Notes under the pieces: generated by a model
Database searches by the model: none
Told to the model about the DNA's origin: nothing
What the model saw: only the letters and a program-made list of their open reading frames with translations
Translations under genes and position numbers: made by a program
In this document: piece by piece, positions 1 to 11,099 of the stretch
Layout: each line of letters begins with the position of its first letter
Numbering within the stretch: position 1 is the first letter of the stretch
Assembly (NCBI GenBank): GCA_024278555.1
Contig: JAJRSX010000113.1
Coordinates: 1-14,644 of the forward strand
DNA: 14,644 nucleotides
Direction: 5' to 3'
DNA from: a bacterium
GTDB taxonomy: Bacteria > CG2-30-53-67 > CG2-30-70-394

Positions 1-389
1 AGGGGGCAGAGGGCGGTGCCGTTGCCGCGCACGAACAGGAGCACCCGCTCGCCCACCGTAAAGGTCGGCATCCCCTCGATCCGCTCCCCGGCGCCGTTCA
101 CCTCGCCGCCGGCGAAGCGCAGCTCCAGGGTCGGCCCCGCGTGGCTCCCCTGCACCACCCGCAGCCCCTCCAGGGTGACGTAGGTAAAGATCCCCGTTAG
201 CTCCTCCCGCGGCACCACCGCCGCCACCCACCCCTCCACCACCAGGTCGGCGGAGAGACTCATCTCCGCCAGGGTCACCGGCGCCACGGTGGTGGCGTGG
301 GCGCGCCCCACCAGGACAAATGCCACGACGGCCACGGCACAAGCGCCGAGCCACCGCCATCGCCTTCCACGAACGCTCCCGCCGCCCAT
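1..389 (-). CDS. Exported protein of unknown function, 3' end outside the window
   Basis: The frame is open from an ATG at 389 to the window edge, giving 129 codons. An SD-like GGGGAG lies about 6 bases before the ATG. The N-terminus has Arg residues, then a hydrophobic stretch (about residues 14-29) ending in GRAHATT, which looks like a Sec signal peptide with cleavage near A32. The mature part (LAEMSLSADLVVEGWV, then YVTLEGLRVVQG, FAGGEVNG, GMPTFTVGERVLLFV) looks like a small all-beta exported domain. I recall similar proteins in delta-type Proteobacteria, sometimes near secreted metalloproteases, but I cannot name a function. It is last in a long run of minus-strand surface-protein genes. 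The C-terminus and any anchor are missing from view. The reading frame is secure and the function is unknown. Confidence 0.75.
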   Translation of the reverse strand, partial: MGGGSVRGRRWRWLGACAVAVVAFVLVGRAHATTVAPVTLAEMSLSADLVVEGWVAAVVPREELTGIFTYVTLEGLRVVQGSHAGPTLELRFAGGEVNGAGERIEGMPTFTVGERVLLFVRGNGTALCP

Positions 390-391
390 TG

Positions 392-574
392 TCATCTCCC
401 CATGCGCCGACATGGCGCTTCGCCTGCGCACCGTACGCCAGACCGGCCCACTGCACCCGGGTGGCGGTCGGGCCTATGCCACCCCATGGAGGCCCCGCCC
501 TCTTCGCCCGCGGCGGAGCCATGTACAACGGCCCCCAAGGACACCCGACCAAGTCCACAAAGTCTGTGCACCAT
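392..574 (-). CDS. Possible 60-residue small ORF before the truncated exported gene (doubtful)
   Basis: On the minus strand a good SD (AAGGAGAGGTG) directly precedes an ATG at 574. The frame stays open to a TGA at 392-394, two bases before the ATG of the next gene (389). That arrangement would allow translational coupling. The product has no recognisable domain, is rich in Gly, Arg, His and Cys, and its composition does not differ clearly from random high-GC reading. It may be a leader ORF, a gene remnant or chance. The rest of the 390-675 gap holds nothing I recognise. Confidence 0.2.
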   Translation of the reverse strand: MVHRLCGLGRVSLGAVVHGSAAGEEGGASMGWHRPDRHPGAVGRSGVRCAGEAPCRRMGR

Positions 575-675: not shown

Positions 676-2331
676 TCACGGCCCCAGGTGGGAGCCGAAG
701 TGGCTGCGCACCACAATCAGATCGGTCACCGAGACGGTGCACGAGCCGTTCACGTCGAGCCGCGGGTCCCAGCCCGGGTCGCCGCACCGGCTACCGAAGG
801 CGCGGCGCACCTTGACGAGGTCGGTGATCGACACGCTCCCGGAGAGGTCCACATCGCCGGCCACCGTGTCCGCCACCAAGGGGTCGGAGCCGAAGCTCGC
901 CTCCAGGGTGTCCGGGTAGCCGTCGTTGTCGTCGTCCGGGTCGCTGTTATCACCAATCCCGTCGCCGTCGTGGTCCGCCCACTCGGTCGGGTCGTCGGGG
1001 AAGAGGTCGACGCTGTTGCCCACCCCGTCGCCGTCGTTGTCCCCATCAAAGCCGAGGAGGCCGTCGGGATCCGCGGGGCTCGCGCAGAGGCAGTCCCCGT
1101 CCTGATCATCAAAGGCGTCGGTGGGACAGGGGTCGCACCGGTTCCCCCGCCCGTCCCCGTCCGTGTCTCGCTGGTCCACGTTGGGGTGGTTGGGACAGTT
1201 GTCCACGCCATCCAGGAGGCCGTCCCCGTCCCGGTCACCGTCCGGGCCGCCGAGGGCCTCGAATGAGCCCTCCAGGTGGAGGAGGTACCCGGTACCGCCG
1301 AGGCCCGATGGGTCGCCTGCCGGGATGGTCGCGGCGTAGTCGAGCAGGTCGTCGCCCCCGCCGGCCACGCCGTCGACGCCGTAGTCCACCACCGCCGGCG
1401 CCCCCTGGCCCAGGTCGATGGCGACCGTGCCGTCATAGGCCATGCGCCACGCGGCCATGGCCACGGTCGCCGTCCCGTTGCCGTTATCGGTCACCGGCAA
1501 CGACCCGACGGTGAAGTGGACCCCGTCCGCGCCGTAGATCGACCACGGCGCATCCACCTCCGACTGGGTGATCCACCCGGCCCCAAAGCCGCCCGTGTGA
1601 GCGAACCCCTCGGCCGTGGCCATGTCGAGTCCACGGCCGTCGGTGTCGGTGGCGCTCGGCGCCATCTCCACCCGCAGCCAGGTGCCGAGATCGAGGGCAA
1701 ACCACGACCCTCGGCCACTAAACACGCCCGCATCCGCCACCGTGCCGCCAAGGCCCGGGGCGAAAAGGAAGTAGGGATCCACCACCACCGTCCCCCGCTC
1801 CTGGCCATCGCACGCATCGGCGACGTCCACCACGCCGTTGCCGTCGAGGTCGTTCTCGAAGTCGTTACACACCCCGTCGCCGTTGGCATCCACGGCCCCG
1901 GCCGGATCGTCCGGGCAGTCATCCGCCACGTTCGGCGTCCCGTCACCGTCGTTGTCGTCATCGAAGCCGAAGGTGCCGTCCACATCGTCCGGGTTGGCAC
2001 AGAAACAGTCGCCATCCAGATCGTCCAGGCGGTCCGTGGGGCAAACATCGCAGGCATCCCCGCTGCCGTCACCGTCCGTATCCGCCTGAGTTGGGTTATA
2101 GATCACCGGGCAGTTATCGGTCGTGTCGGAAACGCCGTCGCCGTCTTGGTCCGACGGCCCTCCGGGATAGGCCAACCAACCACGTAGAAAGAGCGTGTAG
2201 TGGACCCCCTCAAAACCCGATGGCGGCGAGTTCGGCACCAGGGTGTTGTAGATCAGCTCGTAGGTACCGTCTGCGTGCCGGATGAAATAGTTGTCGGCAA
2301 AGGGATCGAGACCGGTTGTGTCGGTGACCAT
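676..2331 (-). CDS. Thrombospondin type-3 repeat protein with C-terminal dockerin; N-terminus probably lost
   Basis: 551 codons from the ATG at 2331. Upstream of this ATG the frame stays open but encodes Pro/Arg-rich shadow of the isomerase gene. Order: residues 1-60 uncharacterised; 61-178 acidic DxDGDGxxDxxDNCP repeats (TSP3-like calcium sites with paired Cys); 180-362 a beta-rich globular part; 363-490 a second TSP3 block; 492-551 a type-I-like dockerin. The dockerin has two loops, DVDLSGSVSITD and DVNGSCTVSVTD, with ligands at positions 1, 3, 5 and 12. Expected role: a calcium-stabilised extracellular protein that docks onto a cohesin. There is no signal peptide and no SD, and the start lies inside the isomerase reading frame. 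The gene is therefore likely 5'-truncated, fused or frameshifted. Its last 80 or so residues closely match those of the NHL protein at 3451-6504. The middle part may resemble a domain seen in other sorted proteins, but that is not secure. Confidence 0.75.
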   Translation of the reverse strand: MVTDTTGLDPFADNYFIRHADGTYELIYNTLVPNSPPSGFEGVHYTLFLRGWLAYPGGPSDQDGDGVSDTTDNCPVIYNPTQADTDGDGSGDACDVCPTDRLDDLDGDCFCANPDDVDGTFGFDDDNDGDGTPNVADDCPDDPAGAVDANGDGVCNDFENDLDGNGVVDVADACDGQERGTVVVDPYFLFAPGLGGTVADAGVFSGRGSWFALDLGTWLRVEMAPSATDTDGRGLDMATAEGFAHTGGFGAGWITQSEVDAPWSIYGADGVHFTVGSLPVTDNGNGTATVAMAAWRMAYDGTVAIDLGQGAPAVVDYGVDGVAGGGDDLLDYAATIPAGDPSGLGGTGYLLHLEGSFEALGGPDGDRDGDGLLDGVDNCPNHPNVDQRDTDGDGRGNRCDPCPTDAFDDQDGDCLCASPADPDGLLGFDGDNDGDGVGNSVDLFPDDPTEWADHDGDGIGDNSDPDDDNDGYPDTLEASFGSDPLVADTVAGDVDLSGSVSITDLVKVRRAFGSRCGDPGWDPRLDVNGSCTVSVTDLIVVRSHFGSHLGP

Positions 2332-3209
2332 GCGGCGAGGTCGTGGTAGAGGCGGTCGAGCTGGGCGCGGTCCGGGGTGAGGTGCCAGCGGGGGCGGAGG
2401 GAGCGGGTGAGGGCCTCGATGGCGACCTCGCGCCGCTCGCGGCGGAGGCGCTGGACGATTCGGTCGCGGACCGCGGCAAAGGGGAGGGGCTCGGCCGGGC
2501 GGCGTGCCTCGACCTCGACCAGGTGGTAGCCGAAGCGGCTCTCGACCACGGAGGAGCGCTCCTCCGGCAGGAGCCGTTGCAGGGCGGCGCGGAGGGCGGG
2601 CTCGATCTGCCCCTCTTCGTGCCACCCCATCTCGCCGCCACGGTTGGCCGAGGGGTGGACGGAGTACCGGCGCGCCACCGCGCCAAAGGGGTCGCCGGCA
2701 GCCAGGCGGGCCGCCGCCGCCTCGGCGCGGTCGCGGCGGCGGCAGAGGATCTGGCGGAAGCGGACCCGCGGTGCACCCTGGAGATCGGGGAGGTTGGCCT
2801 CATAGAGGCGGCGCGTCTCGGCCTCGCGGATCGGGCCGCGCCGGGCCGCCTCGGTGTCGATCCGGGCGGCGGCCAGGAGGCGGTCACGGCGGGGGCCGGG
2901 GGGGCTGGCGAGGAGGGGGTCCCCGGCAGGGAGCGCCTGCTCCGCCTCTCTGGCCAGGAGGTGGAGGGCGGCGAGGTCACGGAGGAAGGCGTCGAAGATC
3001 GGCCGCCGGGTGAGGGCCGCCCGCTGCACCGGCCCGAGGGCGGCGGCGGCCGCCCGCACGTCGGCGGCGGCGAGGCCGGTGCCGTCGGCGAAGCGGATCA
3101 CCAGCGGCCCGCCCGTGGAGGGCGGCGGAGGGGGAGAGGGGGGAGCGGTGGCACACCCGACCACCCACGCCACCGCCAAGAGCATCCAACCCGCCGCCGT
3201 CACCCGCAT
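2253..3209 (-). CDS. Parvulin-type peptidyl-prolyl cis-trans isomerase lipoprotein
   Basis: 318 codons from an ATG at 3209, preceded by the SD GGAGGG at good spacing. The signal peptide MRVTAAGWMLLAVAWVVGC carries a lipobox (VVGC, Cys19), followed by a Pro-rich linker, so this should be a periplasmic lipoprotein. Residues about 145-238 form a rotamase domain: VRFRQILC, DPFGAVARRYSVHPSANRGGEMGW, SRFGYHLVEVEARRP. Residues 40-140 are helical, as in SurA/PrsA-type chaperones. It probably helps fold exported proteins. EpsD-type isomerases of exosortase/EPS loci are one comparison, but I cannot assign it to that family. The last 25 or so residues (from about W294) are an out-of-frame reading of the TSP3/dockerin gene, so the original C-terminus has probably been replaced. 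The 79-base overlap with that gene is unusual. Confidence 0.85.
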   Translation of the reverse strand: MRVTAAGWMLLAVAWVVGCATAPPSPPPPPSTGGPLVIRFADGTGLAAADVRAAAAALGPVQRAALTRRPIFDAFLRDLAALHLLAREAEQALPAGDPLLASPPGPRRDRLLAAARIDTEAARRGPIREAETRRLYEANLPDLQGAPRVRFRQILCRRRDRAEAAAARLAAGDPFGAVARRYSVHPSANRGGEMGWHEEGQIEPALRAALQRLLPEERSSVVESRFGYHLVEVEARRPAEPLPFAAVRDRIVQRLRRERREVAIEALTRSLRPRWHLTPDRAQLDRLYHDLAAWSPTQPVSIPLPTTISSGTQTVPTS

Positions 3210-3303
3210 CACACCCTCCGTTTTGCGTGGGGCCCACGGTACACCGTCCCGAAAGGGGAGGCCCGTGCGGGCCGGGTGGGCCGCTTCCAAGGTGGCAACC
3301 TCC

Positions 3304-3392
3304 CGGTAGGAGGGGGCCGTGCCCCTGATCCGCGCCACCGGCGCGGCGGGCCGCGAAGCGGCCCGGGTCGCGGCCATGGCCCGCTCCTACCG
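3304..3392. repeat. GTAG-type REP-like paired palindrome (BIME-like), copy 1
   Basis: CGGTAGGAG (3304-3312) and CTCCTACCG (3384-3392) are perfect terminal inverted repeats. Each arm has a GTAG head, a short hairpin and a GYGAYCC-like end. Read from the right end, the arm is GGTAGGAGCGGGCCATGGCC followed by GCGACCC. Smaller hairpins lie inside: GCGCC-ACC-GGCGC (3332-3344) and GGGCCGC-GAA-GCGGCCC (3348-3364). It lies between the NHL/dockerin gene and the isomerase gene and matches the element at 13882-13965. GTAG-headed REPs are normally mobilised by RAYT (Y1/TnpA-REP) proteins. None is encoded here. Confidence 0.75.
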
Positions 3393-3450
3393 CTGCATGC
3401 AACAGGCGAGGATGCGGCGGAGAGATGGCGTGCATGGCGCCGCCATCACC

Positions 3451-6400
3451 TCACGGCCCCAGGTGGGAGCCGAAGTGGCCACGGACCAGGATCAGGTCGG
3501 TGATCGAGATGGTGCATGAGCCGTTGAGATCCAGCCGGTCGTCCCAGCCGGGATCGACGCACTGCTTGCCGAAACCGCCGCGTACCTTGATCAGGTCGGT
3601 GATCGAGACGGTGCCGGAGCAGTCCACGTCGCCCACCAGGGTGTCCGGGACGAGGGGATCGCTCCCGAAGGTCGCCTCCAGAGTGTCCGGGTAGCAGTCG
3701 TTGTCGTCGTCCGGATCGCAGGCGTCGCCCGTGCCGTCGCCGTCCGTGTCGAGCTGGTTCGGGTTGGCGAGGCCGGGGCAGTTGTCGTCGCAGCCGGTGG
3801 TGGCGCCGCCGGTGCACGGGTGGTCTCCCGCCACCCCCGAGCCGTCGCCGTCGTCGGGGACCCCGTCACCGTCGGTGTCCAGGAGGCCGAACTTCTGGAT
3901 CCGGTGGTTCCACTTGTCCACCACAAAGAGGTTGCCTCCCGGCCCCACCGCGAGGTCGGTGGGCTTCCAGAACACACCGGGGCCGGTCCCCTGGGTACCC
4001 CACTGCTTGAGGTAGGCCCCGGAGGCGGTGAACTCCTGGATCCGGTGGTTCATGGTGTCGGCCACGAAGATATGGCCGCCGGGGCCGATCGCGATCCCCT
4101 GGGGCGTGTCGAACTGGCCGTCGCCGCTCCCGGGGGCGCCCCACTTGTTCATGAAGGTCCCGGCCGGGTCGAAGACCTGGATCCGGTGGTTGCCCGTGTC
4201 TGCCACGTACAGGTGGCCGGCCGCATCCGCCGCGATCCCGTAGGGGGAGAGAAACTGACCGTCGCCGCTCCCCGGCCCTCCCCACCGGCCCAGGTAGGTC
4301 CCGGCGGCGGTGAAGCGCTGCACCCGGTGGTTCCAGGTGTCCGCCACCAGGAGCTCTCCGGCGGCGTCCACCGCCACCCGGTTGGGGTACTGGAAGGCAC
4401 CGTCACCGGCACCGAAGGTGCCCCACTCGAGGAGGAAGAGGCCGTCGTTGTCGAACTTCTCGATCCGGTGGTTACTCACCTGGCCGTACTGGTTGCCGTC
4501 GGCAACATACACGTCGCCCGCCCCGTCCACCGCGATCCCCGAGGGGTACCACAGCTCGCCCGCGCCGCGGCCGCAGGTGCCCCACTCGGTGAGGAGGGGG
4601 TAGGGGGCGGTGGCCATGGGCGAGAGGGGAAGGGCCGCGGAGGTCGCCACCGCGGCGCGGGGCGGGAAGGGGGGCGGCCGGTCGAGGTTCAGGTTGGGGC
4701 GGAACTTCTCGATCCGTTGGTTGTAGCTGTCGGCCACGTAGGTGTTGCCCGCCCCGTCGGCGGCCACCCCGAGGGGCCACTGGAGCTCGCCGGCGGCCGA
4801 GCCGCGCCCGCCGAAGGCCTCGAGGAAGACCCCGTCGCCGGTGTAGACCTCGATCTGGTTGCCCCAGAAGTTGGTGACATAGACCCGACCCGCGCCGTCC
4901 ACCGCCACGTCCTTCGGCCAGGAGGTGTTCCACTCGCCCAGGTAGTTGCCGTCGGCGTCGAACCACTGGATCCGCTGGTTGTAGTAGTCGGCCACGTAGA
5001 CCCGGCCGGCGCTGCTCACCGCCACCCCGAGGGGGCTCACGAACTGGCCCGGCGCCGCGCCACAGCCGCCCCACTGGCCGACGAAGTTGCCCGCGGCGTC
5101 GAACTTCTGGATCCGCTGGTTGCCCGTGTCCGCCACGTAGACGAAGCCGGCCGGCCCCACGGCCGCCCCCTGGGGACTCTGAAACTGGCCCGGAGCGGTG
5201 CCGGCGCCGCCCCACTCGAGGAGAAAGGCGCCGCCGGGATCGAGCATCTGGATCCGGTGGTTGCCCGTGTCCACCACGTAGACATTGCCCGAGGCGTCTC
5301 CGGCCACGTCGCGCGGATAGCGGAACTCACCGGGGCCGGTGCCGGAGGTGCCGGCGATGGCGAGAAAGGCGCCGGTGGCGTCGAAGCGCTGGACCCGGTG
5401 GTTGTACTGGTCCGCCACCCACACGGCGCCGGTCCCGTCCACGTCGGCGCCGGCGGGGCGGCTGAAGGCGCCCTTGCCCCCGGTGGCGCTGCCCCACAGG
5501 GTGTCGAAGGTGCCGGTGTTGGAGAAGCGCTGGATCCGGTGGTTCCAGGTGTCCGCCACCACGACCCACTGGGCGCCGAAGGGGGCGGTGTTCACCGCCA
5601 CCCCGCGCGGCTCGTTCAGGTTGCCCGGCAGGAGGATGCCGGGCGTGCCGAACTCGAGGACGAAGGTGCCGTCGGTATGGAACTTCTGGACCCGGCCGTT
5701 GCCGGGATCAGCCACGTACACCTCGCCGGCGTGGTCCACCCCGATGCCCTTGGGCCGGACGAACTGCCCCGCACCGCCGCCGCCTTCGCCCCACTCGCCG
5801 ACGAAGTGGCCGTTCGCGGTGAACTTCTGCACCCGGCTGTTGCCCGTGTCCGCCACGAAGACCAAGCCCGACGGCCCCACCGCCACCCCCTCGGGGGCCT
5901 TGAACTCGCCGGGACCACTCCCCAGGCCGCCCCACCCACCGAGATAGGTGCCGTTGGCGTCGAACCGCTGGATCCGGTGGTTGCCCCGGTCGGCCACGTA
6001 GACGGTGGTGCCCAGGGGCGAGAGGGCTACCCCCGCGGGTGCCACGAACTCTCCGGGGCCGGCGCCCGAGTGGCCCCACTTGCCGAGGAAGGTGCCGCCG
6101 GCGTCGAACTTCTGGATCCGGTGGTTGGCCGTGTCCGCCACGTAGACCGTGCCGCCCACCACGGCGATCCCCTCCGGGCGGATGAACTGGCCGTCGCCGT
6201 TGCCGTATCCACCCCAGGTGAGGACGAGGGCGCCGCTGCGGTCGAACTTCTGCACCCGGTGGTTCCAGGTGTCCGCCACGTAGACATTGCCCTTGCCGTC
6301 CATGGCCGTGGCCGACGGCACATCGAAGCGACCCGCCGGCGCCACCACGCTGCCCCACGCCGTGTCGTACACGTGGGAGGCGTGCACGGCCGTCGCCCCC

Positions 6401-6504
6401 AGGAGCAACACGAGGAGGGCCGCGAGCCCAGCCACCGTGCGATGGGCAACCGCACCCCCCTTCCCCTCCCACTCTCCTCCGCTCCATCGCGCGGTTGTCC
6501 TCAT
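3451..6504 (-). CDS. Secreted 17-NHL-repeat protein with TSP3 repeats and C-terminal dockerin
   Basis: 1017 codons from the ATG at 6504, behind a strong SD (AGGAGGAAAGAG). The reading frame extends 30 codons further upstream without a better start. A Sec signal peptide has its hydrophobic core in TVAGLAALLVLLLGATAVHA (about residues 24-43). Then follow 17 NHL repeats with the core VYVADTxNHRIQKF and spacing near 47 residues, in blocks of 12 and 5. A Pro/Ala-rich linker separates them at about residues 600-637. Twelve repeats would fit two six-bladed beta-propellers, and five a third, possibly incomplete one. Residues about 878-955 carry DTDGDGxxD TSP3 motifs with Cys. Residues 958-1017 are a dockerin (DVDCSGTVSITD and DLNGSCTISITD). 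No PEP-CTERM tail or other anchor follows, so attachment through the dockerin is likely. NHL propellers bind proteins, sugars or RNA; the ligand here is unknown. No sigma-54 promoter was found in the 265 bases upstream. Confidence 0.93.
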   Translation of the reverse strand: MRTTARWSGGEWEGKGGAVAHRTVAGLAALLVLLLGATAVHASHVYDTAWGSVVAPAGRFDVPSATAMDGKGNVYVADTWNHRVQKFDRSGALVLTWGGYGNGDGQFIRPEGIAVVGGTVYVADTANHRIQKFDAGGTFLGKWGHSGAGPGEFVAPAGVALSPLGTTVYVADRGNHRIQRFDANGTYLGGWGGLGSGPGEFKAPEGVAVGPSGLVFVADTGNSRVQKFTANGHFVGEWGEGGGGAGQFVRPKGIGVDHAGEVYVADPGNGRVQKFHTDGTFVLEFGTPGILLPGNLNEPRGVAVNTAPFGAQWVVVADTWNHRIQRFSNTGTFDTLWGSATGGKGAFSRPAGADVDGTGAVWVADQYNHRVQRFDATGAFLAIAGTSGTGPGEFRYPRDVAGDASGNVYVVDTGNHRIQMLDPGGAFLLEWGGAGTAPGQFQSPQGAAVGPAGFVYVADTGNQRIQKFDAAGNFVGQWGGCGAAPGQFVSPLGVAVSSAGRVYVADYYNQRIQWFDADGNYLGEWNTSWPKDVAVDGAGRVYVTNFWGNQIEVYTGDGVFLEAFGGRGSAAGELQWPLGVAADGAGNTYVADSYNQRIEKFRPNLNLDRPPPFPPRAAVATSAALPLSPMATAPYPLLTEWGTCGRGAGELWYPSGIAVDGAGDVYVADGNQYGQVSNHRIEKFDNDGLFLLEWGTFGAGDGAFQYPNRVAVDAAGELLVADTWNHRVQRFTAAGTYLGRWGGPGSGDGQFLSPYGIAADAAGHLYVADTGNHRIQVFDPAGTFMNKWGAPGSGDGQFDTPQGIAIGPGGHIFVADTMNHRIQEFTASGAYLKQWGTQGTGPGVFWKPTDLAVGPGGNLFVVDKWNHRIQKFGLLDTDGDGVPDDGDGSGVAGDHPCTGGATTGCDDNCPGLANPNQLDTDGDGTGDACDPDDDNDCYPDTLEATFGSDPLVPDTLVGDVDCSGTVSITDLIKVRGGFGKQCVDPGWDDRLDLNGSCTISITDLILVRGHFGSHLGP

Positions 6505-6694
6505 GATCTCTTTCCTCCTCTGTTCTGGATCTCCTCCACGGCGGCACCCGGGGCCGCTGCCCGGATCTCCTTGCGAATCGTCATGGATCAACACCCTATC
6601 TCAACTGCCGGCGAGGACCGCCCGCGGCCACCCAGTGGGTGGCAGGCCGACCCCCTCCCCCTTCCCTTCCACTCCACCCGCCCCCGCCATACGG

Positions 6695-6749
6695 ACGGCG
6701 CCGGGGCACAGCCCCGACCCCTCCCGCCGATCCGGGGGGGAGGCGCCGT
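6695..6749. other. Branched inverted repeat between the CHRD and NHL genes
   Basis: ACGGCGCC (6695-6702) pairs with GGCGCCGT (6742-6749). Enclosed are a perfect hairpin CGGGGC-ACA-GCCCCG (6702-6716) and a second possible stem, CCTCCC/GGGAGG, around 6720-6742. The shape is a three-way junction. No T-run follows on either strand, so it is not a standard rho-independent terminator. It could be an mRNA processing or attenuation structure between the two minus-strand genes. The remainder of 6505-6769 shows only the NHL gene's SD. Confidence 0.4.
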
Positions 6750-6769
6750 ACGGCCTCGTGGTGGTCGCC

Positions 6770-7288
6770 CTACACATCCCCTCTCCCTCTCCTGAGCCAC
6801 GCTGCCGCCGTGGCCACCAGGAGCAAGGCCGTGGGCTCGGGCACCGCGGGGATGAACTGGCCGCGGATCTCGCCGGCCGGGAAGGGGGTGGTGTGCAGGT
6901 TGATGTAGGTATCGCCGCCGAGCAGGGCCGCCTCGCTCGCCGCCGGGAAGGGGGCGCCGTTGACGGCGCGCCCAAAGACACCCATTCCGCCGAAGAAGGA
7001 GGCGGCGCCGAGGTCGACCACCACCGGCCCGTTGACGCCCGGGGGCGCCTGGTGGATGTGGGCGCCGGTGAGGTCGGCGAGGGCGATGCCGTTACCCACC
7101 AGGGCGAGGTCGAAGAGGTGGGTGGCGGTGTCGTAGGACATCACCGCGTCGCCGACCGCGTTGCTCGCGGTGGCGGGCACCTCCTGGCCCCCGTCGAGGT
7201 GGGCGGTGAGGGTGATGAGGGCGGCGGTAGCCGGTGTTGCGGCCGCCACCACCCAAACGAGGAGGGCAAATAAGATGCGATTAGCCAT
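6770..7288 (-). CDS. CHRD-domain protein with PEP-CTERM sorting signal
   Basis: 172 codons. A signal peptide MANRILFALLVWVVAAATPATA is followed by a CHRD domain (about residues 24-147): LTAHLDGGQEVPAT, YDTATHLFDLAL, LTGAHIHQAPPGVNGPVVVDL, YINLHTTPFPAGEIRGQF. CHRD domains, named from chordin, are common in bacterial exported proteins; their ligand is not established. The end is VPEP (149-152), a hydrophobic helix ALLLVATAAAW and RRGRG, a complete PEP-CTERM signal for exosortase processing. Only 39 bases separate it from the cohesin-like gene upstream, so the two are probably one operon read from the sigma-54 promoter at 8187-8203. A GGGGGT about 5 bases before the ATG is a weak ribosome site. 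Confidence 0.93.
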   Translation of the reverse strand: MANRILFALLVWVVAAATPATAALITLTAHLDGGQEVPATASNAVGDAVMSYDTATHLFDLALVGNGIALADLTGAHIHQAPPGVNGPVVVDLGAASFFGGMGVFGRAVNGAPFPAASEAALLGGDTYINLHTTPFPAGEIRGQFIPAVPEPTALLLVATAAAWLRRGRGDV

Positions 7289-7327
7289 GATGACCCCCGC
7301 AGGTGTTCGAAGTTGAAGGGGACCGCC

Positions 7328-7921
7328 TCACGCGCGGCGCCGGCGGATCAGGAGGCCGAGGAGCGGTAGGCCGATGAGGGCGAGGCTGGTGGGCTCGGGG
7401 ACACCGACGGTGACCCGGGCACCGGTGAAGCTGTAGAGGGTGGTGAGATCGGCCCCGGTAGTGTCGGCGACCGCCTCAAAGCCGGTGCGGGCACCGAAGT
7501 CGATGAAATTGATCTGGCTCACCCCCGGGGTCGGGCCCGCCTGGAGGCGGAGGATGCCCAGGATCCCCATCCCCTCATGATCGGCAATCGAGAAATCAAG
7601 CTGCGTAAACCGTACATGACCAGCGGCTACAGCCGTCCCACCCGCCTCAAAGGGGGTCGTAAGGAAGCTTCCATCCTCCACCCCGGTGAAGCTGGCGACG
7701 CTGGAGTCGGAGGAATCCAGTTCGAGATCGAAAGAACTCATTGGGGCACCGGTGGAGTCGATGTGAATCGGCATGTCGAAGGCGGTCCCTGGAGCGACGG
7801 TGATCGCCTCGAGCCAGATCGCCGGCGGCGCCATGGCCGCGTGGGCCGCGGTGGCGGCGGTAAAGAGGAGGACGGTGGCTGCGAGGCAGGTGCGGGTGGC
7901 GATGGAGGCGATGGACTTCAT
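7328..7921 (-). CDS. Cohesin-like domain protein with PEP-CTERM sorting signal
   Basis: 197 codons from an ATG at 7921, with AAAGG upstream. The open frame extends 96 codons further, but that part is Pro/Arg-rich and comes before the signal peptide (residues 1-28, ending TAATAAHA). Residues about 35-172 have the cohesin pattern: an opening ITVAPGTAFDMPIHID, MSSFDLELD, a FTGVEDGSFL segment, GHVRFTQLDF, then GMGILGILRLQAG-TPGVSQINFI and a final strand TGARVTV. This fits the nine-stranded jelly-roll of cohesins and the GxGxLxxLxFxA-G signature. It ends VPEP (174-177), SLALIGLPLLGLLI, RRRRA. The product would be an exosortase-sorted envelope protein able to hold dockerin partners, and two dockerin proteins are encoded downstream on the same strand. 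Similar beta-sandwiches occur in PEP-CTERM proteins without proven cohesin activity, so the domain name is strong but not certain. Confidence 0.85.
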   Translation of the reverse strand: MKSIASIATRTCLAATVLLFTAATAAHAAMAPPAIWLEAITVAPGTAFDMPIHIDSTGAPMSSFDLELDSSDSSVASFTGVEDGSFLTTPFEAGGTAVAAGHVRFTQLDFSIADHEGMGILGILRLQAGPTPGVSQINFIDFGARTGFEAVADTTGADLTTLYSFTGARVTVGVPEPTSLALIGLPLLGLLIRRRRA

Positions 7922-8795: not shown

Positions 8796-9404
8796 TCAGC
8801 CATGGGGTGTGCCACGGCGCAGGCCCCACAGAGAGAGGCCAAGGCCACCCACCAGGGCCAGGGCGGTGGGCTCGGGGACGATCACCTGCGCCGAGTCGAG
8901 CAGGGTGGGCACCGTGTTATCCATGACCTGGAAGGGGACGCCGCCGTCCTTGGTGACGTAGTAGACAAAGAGTTGGGAGACCGGCACATCCCCCGCGACG
9001 GTGTAGGCGAAGCTGGCGGTCTCCCCCTCGGTGAGGGCGGAGGCGGCGTCGCCGGTCCAGTCGAGGAAATTGCCCGTGGTGGTGGTGGGGTCCGCCCACC
9101 CGGCGGTATTGCTCAGGCCGCTCGCCGCCCCCTCGGACCAGTCGCGGATGATCGCGAAGTCGACCACCGTCCACTCGGCCGCGGCGTCCGCGTTGAGGGT
9201 GAGGTCGTAGGTGAGGCCGGTCTCCCCGACGATCGAGGTGTCGATGGTGAGCGCCAGGGTGAGGGAGAGGGTGTCGATATTGTGGTCCGGCGCCACACCA
9301 CCGGCGGGGACCAAGGCCGGCGCGGCAATCAGGGCAGCACCGGCGAGTTGGGGCGCCAGCAGGAGGGAAAGACCGAGGGTCACGATTTTCAACAGGGTGG
9401 ACAT
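8796..9404 (-). CDS. PEP-CTERM sorting-domain protein, function unknown
   Basis: 202 codons from an ATG at 9404, preceded by GGAGA. Signal peptide: MSTLLKIVTLGLSLLLAPQLAGA. The mature part (about 24-172) is Thr/Ala/Asp-rich and predicted all-beta: LSLTLALTIDTS, LTYDLTLNADAAAEWTVVDF, SFAYTVAGDVP, LFVYYVTKDGGVPFQV. It has no Cys, suits an extracellular adhesin or matrix protein, and matches no enzyme family I recognise. The tail is VPEP (176-179), TALALVGGLGLSLWGL, RRG, a typical exosortase sorting signal. A sigma-54 promoter lies about 200 bases upstream, with paired enhancers behind it. The activator gene at 10029 is divergent. Such proteins are known to be secreted and built into exopolysaccharide matrix or flocs in some species. 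Confidence 0.92.
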   Translation of the reverse strand: MSTLLKIVTLGLSLLLAPQLAGAALIAAPALVPAGGVAPDHNIDTLSLTLALTIDTSIVGETGLTYDLTLNADAAAEWTVVDFAIIRDWSEGAASGLSNTAGWADPTTTTGNFLDWTGDAASALTEGETASFAYTVAGDVPVSQLFVYYVTKDGGVPFQVMDNTVPTLLDSAQVIVPEPTALALVGGLGLSLWGLRRGTPHG

Positions 9405-9601: not shown

Positions 9602-9618
9602 TGCAGACCGCGTGCCAA
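9602..9618 (-). promoter_or_regulatory. Sigma-54 -24/-12 promoter for the PEP-CTERM unit
   Basis: The minus strand reads TTGGCACGCGGTCTGCA. It matches TTGGCACGNNNNTTGCW at every fixed position but one (T to C), with exact GG-to-GC spacing. It lies 198 bases before the ATG at 9404. This is the best sigma-54 match in the window. Confidence 0.82.
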
Positions 9619-10028: not shown

Positions 10029-11099
10029 ATGGAGGGTGGAATCACCGCAAAAGAGCGGCAGACAGAGGAGCGCCAGCGGCAACAGGAGGAGCAGTGGGCC
10101 CGGGAGAACTGTCCGGAGATTGTCGGCCGCCACCCACGCCTCATCAGCGCACTGCAGATCGTCCGCATGGCCGCGGAGGACGGTGATTGCACCGTCCTCA
10201 TCACCGGTCCGACCGGCAGCGGCAAGGAGCTGGTGGCCGCGGCGATCCACGAGTGCTCCTTCCGCCGCGCCGCCCCGTACCGGACGGTGAACGCGGCGTC
10301 ACTGCCCGCGGAGCTCGCCGACTCCCTCCTCTTTGGCCACCAGAAGGGCGCCTTCACCGACGCCACCTCGTCGACCCGAGGCCTGTTGCGGGAGGCCCAC
10401 GGCGGGACCCTCTTCCTCGACGAGATCCAGGAGCTCCACCCGCGGGTTCAGGCGAAGCTCCTGCGCTTCCTCCAGGACCACCGGGTGGCACCGGTGGGGG
10501 CGGCGGGTGAGCCGTGGGAGGTCGATGTCCGCATCCTCGCCGGCTCCAACCAGCACCTCCCGGAGGCGGTGGCGGCCGGCCGCTTCCGCGCCGACCTCTT
10601 CTACCGCCTCAACGTCCTCCCCATCGACCTGCCGCCGTTGGCGGAGCGCAAGGAGGACATCCCCCTCCTCGCGACCCATTTCCTCGACCAGCTCAATGGG
10701 CAGAAGGGGTCCACCACCTCCCTGGCGCCGGAGACGGTGGCCGCGCTGGTGGCCTACGACTGGCCGGGCAACGTACGCGAGCTGAGGAACCTCATGGAGC
10801 GGCTGGTGATCGTCTGCCGAAACCGCACCATCGAGATGGATGACCTGCCGCAGGAGATCGCCCCCCTGGACGAGGCGACGCGGGCCGCCATCGGCAAGCA
10901 CGACCTGCGGGCGGCCAAGGAGGCGATGGTCGCCGCCTTCGAGCGTGACTACATCTCCCGCCAGTGGGTCGCCAACGACTACCGCCTGCAACAGACCGCC
11001 GAGGCCCTCGGTACGACCCGCCAGTGGCTCACGAAGCAGATCCGCAAGTACGGGATCGAGTACCCGGATCGCCCGCGACGGGGGCCACGGATCCAGTAA
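10029..11099 (+). CDS. Stand-alone sigma-54 enhancer-binding protein (AAA+ and Fis-type HTH)
   Basis: 356 codons. There is no receiver, GAF or PAS domain: only about 30 residues, Glu/Gln-rich, precede the AAA+ core. Motifs: Walker A GPTGSGKE (60-67), the sigma-54 contact loop as GAFTDA (107-112) rather than GAFTGA, Walker B GTLFLDE (126-132), arginine-finger region FRADLFYRL (186-194), and sensor II WPGNVREL (245-252). Residues about 290-345 form a Fis-type helix-turn-helix (QQTAEALGTTRQWLTKQIRKYGI). It should hydrolyse ATP to remodel sigma-54 holoenzyme. Like PspF it lacks a regulatory domain, so control must come from its level, an anti-activator or a partner. It is encoded divergently beside two sigma-54 promoters with paired palindromic enhancers, its most likely targets. 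In other bacteria PEP-CTERM genes are controlled by RpoN with PrsK/PrsR, but PrsR has a receiver. Start: ATG after AGGGTGG. Confidence 0.93.
   Translation: MEGGITAKERQTEERQRQQEEQWARENCPEIVGRHPRLISALQIVRMAAEDGDCTVLITGPTGSGKELVAAAIHECSFRRAAPYRTVNAASLPAELADSLLFGHQKGAFTDATSSTRGLLREAHGGTLFLDEIQELHPRVQAKLLRFLQDHRVAPVGAAGEPWEVDVRILAGSNQHLPEAVAAGRFRADLFYRLNVLPIDLPPLAERKEDIPLLATHFLDQLNGQKGSTTSLAPETVAALVAYDWPGNVRELRNLMERLVIVCRNRTIEMDDLPQEIAPLDEATRAAIGKHDLRAAKEAMVAAFERDYISRQWVANDYRLQQTAEALGTTRQWLTKQIRKYGIEYPDRPRRGPRIQ

Follow-up and report, generated by a model that had tools for sequence, protein, structure and literature searches.

The window, a 14,644-nucleotide stretch of DNA, encodes two proteins ending in dockerins and a small protein, P0003, in which an earlier note had recognised by eye a cohesin-like domain and a PEP-CTERM tail. 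This arrangement raises the question of whether P0003 operates as a surface anchor for dockerin-bearing proteins. We estimate a probability of roughly 70% that P0003 is an exosortase-processed, single-cohesin anchor that displays dockerin-tagged cargo.

Predicted export, sorting and fold of P0003

P0003 (197 aa; 7328-7921, reverse strand), the proposed anchor, encompasses a signal-like N-terminal stretch, a single cohesin and a C-terminal PEP-CTERM tail. The tail (VPEPTSLALIGLPLLGLLIRRRR; 7334-7402, reverse strand) scored 19.4 bits against the NCBIfam model TIGR02595, above the curated cut-off of 16. The open reading frame, signal-like stretch and tail score uphold the earlier description of a 197-residue exported protein with a full PEP-CTERM tail. 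The genome search for exosortases that had been suggested identified two, encoded outside the window on contigs C106 and C11, with the C106 enzyme scoring above the XrtA cut-off. With a tail above the curated cut-off and exosortases in the genome, P0003 is a predicted PEP-CTERM/exosortase substrate.

The cohesin domain was located at residues 30-172 (7406-7834, reverse strand) by a profile HMM and by a fold match with VIA. Pfam and PDB sequence searches queried with P0003 returned no cohesin, and Pfam's own cohesin model (PF00963) does not recognise the protein, which must therefore be a divergent member of the family. The profile HMM, compiled from 30 PF00963-selected and independently chosen cohesins, matched P0003 with 29.8 bits (E = 2.6e-11), while the best among 5,000 shuffles reached 11.4 bits. 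Structure prediction of P0003 alone, also suggested in the earlier note, was performed with AF2 on P0003 and its sister homologue, an alignment without any known cohesin. The best 37 matches of this model in a Foldseek search against PDB were all cohesins. With VIA, the best PDB cohesin aligned over 127 residues at 2.7 A (Z 10.6), and the first 28 of the 50 PDB entries listed were cohesins (Z 10.6 to 8.8). Model confidence was low, with a pLDDT of 50 for the searched model and of 47.6 for a full-length model left out of the fold search; given a pLDDT of just 50, the jelly-roll result is provisional. Two largely independent tests, the profile against shuffles and the fold search, hence support the P0003 core as a predicted cohesin, with PF00963-type sequence homology and, provisionally, the jelly-roll fold, and they substantiate the call made by eye.

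Dockerin proteins and their putative display

The first putative cargo, P0002 (3451-6504, reverse strand), presents a signal-like N-terminus, 17 NHL repeats, TSP3 repeats and a C-terminal dockerin (3454-3633, reverse strand) with two calcium-type loops (GDVDCSGTVSITDLIKVR... and RLDLNGSCTISITDLILVR...). The second, P0001 (676-2330, reverse strand), combines beta-domains, the first copy being truncated, with TSP3 repeats and a C-terminal dockerin (679-858, reverse strand). Both the 17 NHL repeats and the TSP3 repeats had been described correctly. The tandem calcium-loop/helix segments of the P0002 dockerin (DVDCSGTVSITD and DLNGSCTISITD) have counterparts in P0001 and in a protein encoded on contig C58, conforming to the two tandem segments of Type I dockerins (PF00404). 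The two window dockerins lie at the C-terminus, as had been reported, and no sorting tail was found on either protein; their supposed near-identity did not hold, with 14 differences over 60 residues (77% identity by direct count).

The search of the 3.06-Mb genome for further dockerin proteins, likewise proposed earlier, identified exactly three dockerins, scoring 22.9 (P0001), 17.9 and 15.6 bits; among the window dockerins, only that of P0001 reached the Pfam cut-off, and only in this genome search. The third is the C-terminus of a matrixin protease on C58 (matrixin-CARDB-TSP3-dockerin), the third putative cargo. The left end of the window carries the N-terminal part of a secreted protein (3-431, reverse strand) that runs off the contig towards C58 and whose homologues precede a matrixin. 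C58 very probably abuts this end, with the third dockerin gene continuing there, so that all three dockerin genes would cluster with the only cohesin found. The view that the cargo are not glycoside hydrolases stands for the NHL, TSP3/beta-domain and matrixin-CARDB proteins, with the addition of a metalloprotease that had escaped the earlier note.

The C-terminal TSP3-dockerin module (139 aa including TSP3) is 70-82% identical among these otherwise unrelated proteins, as might be expected of a sorting tag. It could accordingly be a calcium-stabilised cap or a secretion tag with no need for a cohesin, and 42 of the 88 dockerin genomes in a survey of 290 genomes lacked a PF00963 cohesin. Some of these genomes, however, hold cohesins missed by Pfam that adjoin dockerin genes, and co-occurrence of both modules across genomes is strong (46 of 59 cohesin genomes also have dockerins), making a cap or tag improbable.

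Under the anchor reading, a signal peptide would direct the export of P0003, the PEP-CTERM tail would retain it, and one or other of the exosortases would carry out its processing. Its cohesin is predicted to bind, in a possibly calcium-dependent manner, the C-terminal dockerins of three neighbouring proteins: the 17-repeat NHL propeller, the matrixin-CARDB metalloprotease and, if exported, the TSP3/beta-domain protein. Tail-less cargo may thereby be retained on the cell surface or within the exopolysaccharide matrix. As cargo would be held through the cohesin anchor, the dockerin would stand in for a PEP-CTERM tail, and the single cohesin per anchor implies one cargo at a time and no multi-enzyme scaffold.

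The proviso on the TSP3/beta-domain protein stems from its 5' end. No signal peptide was detected on P0001 as assembled. Its codon signal starts at ATG 2330, in a different frame from that of the parvulin (rotamase) lipoprotein gene (2253-3209, reverse strand), whose own codon signal stops near 2330. The first beta-domain of P0001 is cut short relative to the full copies in genome G004, and the loss of most of its length suggests that sequence near 2330 was deleted or misassembled; for the same reason, we rejected the idea that parvulin and TSP3 protein are one chain split by a simple frameshift. With the gene 5'-truncated as assembled, export of P0001 is putative. The parvulin lipoprotein is indeed present in the cluster, but its suggested role as a dedicated cargo-folding factor is not supported, since such parvulins occur in most relatives.

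Recurrence in the phylum

PEP-CTERM cohesins beside dockerin genes were identified in three other genomes of the candidate phylum CG2-30-70-394 (G003, G004 and G006), and their PEP-CTERM tails were confirmed. G003 encodes a dockerin protein followed by a PEP-CTERM cohesin; G004 presents a dockerin gene, a cohesin and a PEP-CTERM cohesin, in this order; and in G006 a dockerin gene lies about 3 kb from a PEP-CTERM cohesin on the same strand. Overall, a cohesin was detected near the dockerin in 4 of 11 phylum dockerin loci, against none of 40 control stretches (exploratory Fisher test, p = 0.0013), with no cohesin match near the other seven. In G004, moreover, members of one beta-domain family within a single locus carry a PEP-CTERM tail in some cases and a dockerin in others. 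The proposal of an anchor with docked cargo is thus strengthened by recurrence in three genomes and by tail swapping, and weakened where it requires P0001 in its assembled form to be exported.

These cohesins are too divergent from P0003 to be called its orthologues by sequence comparison (hhalign gave 1.3% against the G004 pair). A scan of genome contigs for related loci matched the sister genome G001 alone, and neither P0003 nor the dockerin had a match among plasmids. PF00963 detected no cohesin over the whole genome. Cohesins invisible to Pfam were sought in part of it, and no match was obtained in its other PEP-CTERM loci or in 265 kb of control contigs, leaving P0003 as the only cohesin found among its PEP-CTERM loci, within its only dockerin cluster.

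The recurrence also bears on the notion that the genes ended up together by chance, in a locus prone to duplicating modules, and that their products do not interact. The three dockerin modules do resemble recent copies of each other, and unrelated PEP-CTERM genes are also found in the window. Two additional genera nevertheless show the pairing, their dockerins being of different types and their cohesins divergent, and the control stretches have no cohesins; accident therefore seems very improbable.

The sister genome bears on a different alternative, in which P0003 is a PEP-CTERM surface protein reusing a cohesin-fold beta-sandwich, for instance for polysaccharide contact, and the dockerins bind another, unrecognised partner. 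G001 retains the cohesin gene and its upstream neighbours without this type of dockerin; its one dockerin, on another contig, is of another type, which counts against the anchor reading. Many PEP-CTERM proteins have beta-sandwich bodies, and the failure of Pfam's model on P0003 points the same way. The G001 homologue (47% identical) contains, on the other hand, an in-frame TAG, so that this gene may be decaying. Together with the association of PEP-CTERM cohesins with dockerin genes in three further genomes and of P0003 with the only dockerin cluster, this renders the alternative unlikely, though less so than the two preceding ones.

Known systems and gene context

The locus is a new combination of known parts. 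A cellulosome was rejected, with no scaffoldin and no glycoside hydrolases in the cluster: PF00963 is silent genome-wide, cohesins invisible to Pfam were sought in part of the genome, P0003 has a single cohesin rather than a multi-cohesin scaffoldin, and the cargo are NHL, TSP3/beta-domain and matrixin-CARDB proteins. The closest parallel within cellulosomes is that of clostridial anchoring scaffoldins, the single-cohesin OlpA and OlpC, whose cohesins (3ul4, 4dh2) ranked among the top fold matches of P0003. As predicted for P0003, they are surface-anchored single cohesins taking dockerin proteins; they differ from it in that P0003 has an exosortase tail, in a presumed diderm, where no scaffoldin was detected and the cluster encodes no glycoside hydrolase.

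Non-cellulosomal pairs, reviewed by Peer et al. 2009 (as cited in PMC9012536 and PMC5244752), similarly comprise single cohesins and dockerins that have no part in breaking down plant fibre. Among them is the Archaeoglobus fulgidus cohesin (PDB 2xdh), also matched by the P0003 fold (Z 9.2). As far as these sources describe them, the pairs lack what is seen here, a bacterial PEP-CTERM tail on the cohesin and one anchor gene with three dockerin cargoes. In the ANME cohesin/dockerin proteins the cargo is likewise extracellular and non-cellulolytic, and attachment to the cell's outer layer has been proposed (PMC5244752, PMC9012536). Their context is an archaeal S-layer, some are multi-cohesin proteins, and the available portions of both papers describe no PEP-CTERM cohesin.

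The sorting tail is that of PEP-CTERM/exosortase systems (Haft 2006, PMC1569441; Nostoc CrtB, PMC12188702; Aquincola PepA, PMC9850573), which also share exosortases and sigma-54-type promoters upstream of PEP-CTERM genes. In those systems effector domain and tail reside on one chain, whereas most cargo here has a dockerin instead. P0002 illustrates this difference: it scores 519.8 bits against the model of ScyF, an NHL PEP-CTERM protein (NF035926, cut-off 350), a value inflated by its 17 repeats, and it falls outside this equivalog in ending in TSP3-dockerin rather than PEP-CTERM.

What cohesins and dockerins do outside cellulosomes has been called unknown (PMC5244752). Roughly half of the surveyed dockerin genomes are without a Pfam-recognised cohesin. 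The locus presents a specific pair, in which a divergent cohesin equipped with a sorting tail of its own neighbours dockerin cargo. We tentatively suggest, at somewhat less than even odds, that such genomes are partly explained by a general display scheme, with small, divergent, anchored cohesins beside dockerin cargo genes and the dockerin as an indirect sorting signal interchangeable with the PEP-CTERM tail. Anchors in this scheme are proposed to be an exosortase tail, a lipobox or a membrane tail, one per cohesin. Under the anchor reading, an exosortase could place at the surface, via a non-covalent adaptor, proteins without its tail. A literature search found no paper naming PEP-CTERM alongside dockerin or "cohesin domain".

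Further PEP-CTERM genes flank P0003. Lying 40 bp downstream, an exported CHRD-domain protein (6770-7288, reverse strand; PF07452, 5e-25) has a weak tail, scoring 14.6 bits with TIGR02595 in hmmscan (cut-off 16) and 18.0 in the genome search. Upstream is a PEP-CTERM protein (8796-9404, reverse strand), in a gene order kept in G001. A sigma-70 scan returned no promoter-like site, and a sigma-54-like site at 8202-8187, upstream of P0003, was weak and within chance, with no counterpart seen upstream of the G001 gene. A sigma-54-type promoter box (TGGCACGCGGTCTGCA; 9602-9617, reverse strand) is also present upstream of the orthologous G001 gene, and a sigma-54 activator of the AAA+ type (10029-11099, forward strand) adjoins the PEP-CTERM/cohesin genes in both genomes.

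A cohesin-like PEP-CTERM protein among dockerin genes

The window corresponds to contig C84, one of 211 in a 3.06 Mb genome whose nearest named relative, Nitrospirae bacterium CG2_30_70_394, belongs to the same genus and corresponds to the sister genome G001; GTDB uses CG2-30-70-394 as a placeholder name at ranks up to phylum (PMC8728215). The relevant genes all lie on the minus strand. Taken in the direction of transcription, the first encodes a PEP-CTERM protein (9404-8796) and the second P0003 (7921-7328), which is cohesin-like and also has a PEP-CTERM tail. They are followed by genes for a CHRD protein whose PEP-CTERM tail is weak (7288-6770), for P0002, which combines NHL, TSP3 and dockerin modules (6504-3451), and for a parvulin lipoprotein (from 3209). 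Last come P0001, with beta-domain, TSP3 and dockerin (to 676), and the beginning of a gene for a secreted protein (3-431) that leaves the contig.

The Pfam cohesin model returned no match to P0003. With a hidden Markov model derived from 30 domains picked by the Pfam model in other genomes, independently of P0003, the protein scored 29.8 bits (E 2.6e-11), against a maximum of 11.4 bits for its shuffled sequence (n=5,000); an earlier, slightly biased cohesin set had yielded 40.7 bits, and 97% in profile comparison. The AlphaFold2 model, obtained from an input alignment of P0003 and its sister homologue only, is all-beta and of low confidence (pLDDT 50, pTM 0.49). The best 37 PDB matches to this model in Foldseek were all cohesins, and VIA-align reported a Z of 10.6 across 127 residues, with cohesins in all of the top 28 places of its 50-entry list. 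Although the low pLDDT does limit this result, fold matches this uniform would be hard to get by accident. With both profile and fold tests positive, P0003 is predicted to be a cohesin, and the structure prediction of the protein alone provisionally agrees with what the earlier note had read from the sequence.

Sister genome G001 encodes a P0003 homologue (L122:9710-10297) that is 47% identical and contains an in-frame TAG, and the single dockerin of that genome is of a different type. The TAG could denote decay of the gene once the cargo had been lost, making it a possible pseudogene, or a sequencing error; alternatively, the retention of a cohesin without matching dockerins could be a sign of another cohesin role.

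Dockerin-tailed proteins and the extent of the cluster

The dockerin modules of P0001 and P0002 both carry two calcium-type loops, those of P0002 being DVDCSGTVSITD and DLNGSCTISITD. By direct count they share 77% identity over 60 residues; both modules are real, but less alike than the near-identity first attributed to them. The proposal that the TSP3 protein P0001 is docked cargo is supported in part, since the dockerin is present but the gene is 5'-truncated and lacks an export signal as assembled. Near position 2330, at an ATG, the codon signal changes frame sharply, with the parvulin coding signal ending and the TSP3 signal starting, and most of the first P0001 beta-domain is absent, as is any signal peptide. 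The junction looks like a genuine deletion or else a misassembly.

A genome-wide search with the Pfam model and our own alignment located one further dockerin, for a total of three, at the C-terminus of a protein with matrixin (PF00413) and CARDB domains, encoded on contig C58. The proposed cargo set of NHL and TSP3 dockerin proteins would be extended with a matrixin protease and a third dockerin gene. Within the family of the ORF at the left end of the window, a matrixin directly follows the family member in at least 9 of 17 loci. The start of C58 resembles the absent C-terminus of a protein of this type and is followed by the matrixin gene; the ends of C84 and C58 share no overlap. These sequence features strongly suggest that C84 joins C58, which would gather the three dockerin genes and P0003 in one cluster. 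The small uncharacterised secreted protein (3-431, minus strand) followed by a matrixin metalloprotease is a conserved pair in many unrelated genomes. The 3' end of C58 (L066) and contig C101 (L068), which carries a TSP3 lipoprotein gene, present an exact 16-bp end overlap with one reading frame continuing across it, so that C84, C58 and C101 are probably one stretch.

P0002 exceeds the cut-off for ScyF, a PEP-CTERM NHL protein, with a score inflated by its 17 repeats, yet its C-terminus is a dockerin. The P0001-type beta-domain occurs in three copies in a locus of another phylum member (G004), two with a PEP-CTERM tail and one with a dockerin tail. Together, these observations suggest that a dockerin can replace the PEP-CTERM tail.

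Recurrence of cohesin and dockerin gene pairs

In G004, the gene for a dockerin-tailed protein is followed after 37 bp by that of a small, exported, tailless cohesin and then by that of a PEP-CTERM cohesin-like protein, which shares 37% identity with its tailless neighbor (E 1e-32). Two further phylum members show related arrangements: G003 encodes a 192-aa PEP-CTERM cohesin downstream of a dockerin gene, and in G006 a dockerin gene and a PEP-CTERM cohesin gene lie about 3 kb apart on one strand. The G003 dockerin gene (L046:1-1110) is frameshifted, in the assembly or in reality, with its second repeat in another frame. No cohesin matches were detected in 476 kb of control stretches of G004 and the window's genome (G000), or in the other PEP-CTERM loci of the latter. 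Cohesins were found in 4/11 dockerin loci and in 0/40 control stretches (p = 0.0013), a value that is exploratory because TSP3 repeats had led to one of the loci and the G004 pair is part of one of the two scoring models. G003, G004 and G006 have cohesins too divergent from P0003 for orthologue status, as are their dockerins from those of the window; this divergence would fit pairs drifting together.

Dockerin genes adjoining an individually anchored cohesin were also identified in two other lineages. In G226 (L260:8300-10199), a lipoprotein-like cohesin gene (with a lipobox-like motif) overlaps the end of the dockerin gene. In G064 (L261:9627-13293), the dockerin gene adjoins a cohesin that bears TSP3 repeats and whose hydrophobic tail ends in arginine, with PEP-CTERM genes nearby. 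Across 290 genomes, dockerins were present in 46 of the 59 with Pfam cohesins, and 42 of the 88 with Pfam dockerins had no Pfam cohesin. The latter include G000, G003, G004 and G006, yet these four carry cohesins missed by Pfam. The parts of the system are known; what is new, among non-cellulosomal cohesin-dockerin pairs, is the proposed sorting by an exosortase of a single cohesin that would hold dockerin cargo. The literature searched, which covered few subscription papers, contained no mention of PEP-CTERM together with dockerin or "cohesin domain", and automatic annotations joining cohesin and PEP-CTERM may exist.

Sorting machinery and proposed assembly

The search for exosortases identified them at two sites of the genome, on C106 (exceeding the XrtA cut-off) and on C11, and the genome encodes 18 PEP-CTERM tails. 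In other bacteria, PEP-CTERM proteins require exosortases to reach the exterior (PMC12188702), and in flocs a PEP-CTERM protein attaches exopolysaccharide to cells (PMC9850573). Around the observed domains, tails, exosortases and gene linkage, we infer the binding of cohesin to dockerin, its calcium dependence, the cellular location and the purpose. P0003 would be exported, processed by an exosortase and display a single cohesin holding the NHL propeller protein and the matrixin protease, as well as the TSP3 protein, if exported. The central idea of the earlier note, a PEP-CTERM cohesin anchor with dockerin-tailed cargo, is, with the above corrections, better supported than its author could know.

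Sigma-54-type boxes (TGGCAC-N5-TTGC, with at most one mismatch) lie 5' of the PEP-CTERM tail, on the correct strand, in 8 of the 18 PEP-CTERM loci of the genome, at 9602-9617 (minus) in the window and in L006, L007, L012, L013, L014, L016 and L019. These boxes agree with the RpoN dependence of pepA (PMC9850573), and one is also present upstream of the sister-genome orthologue of the 8796-9404 gene.
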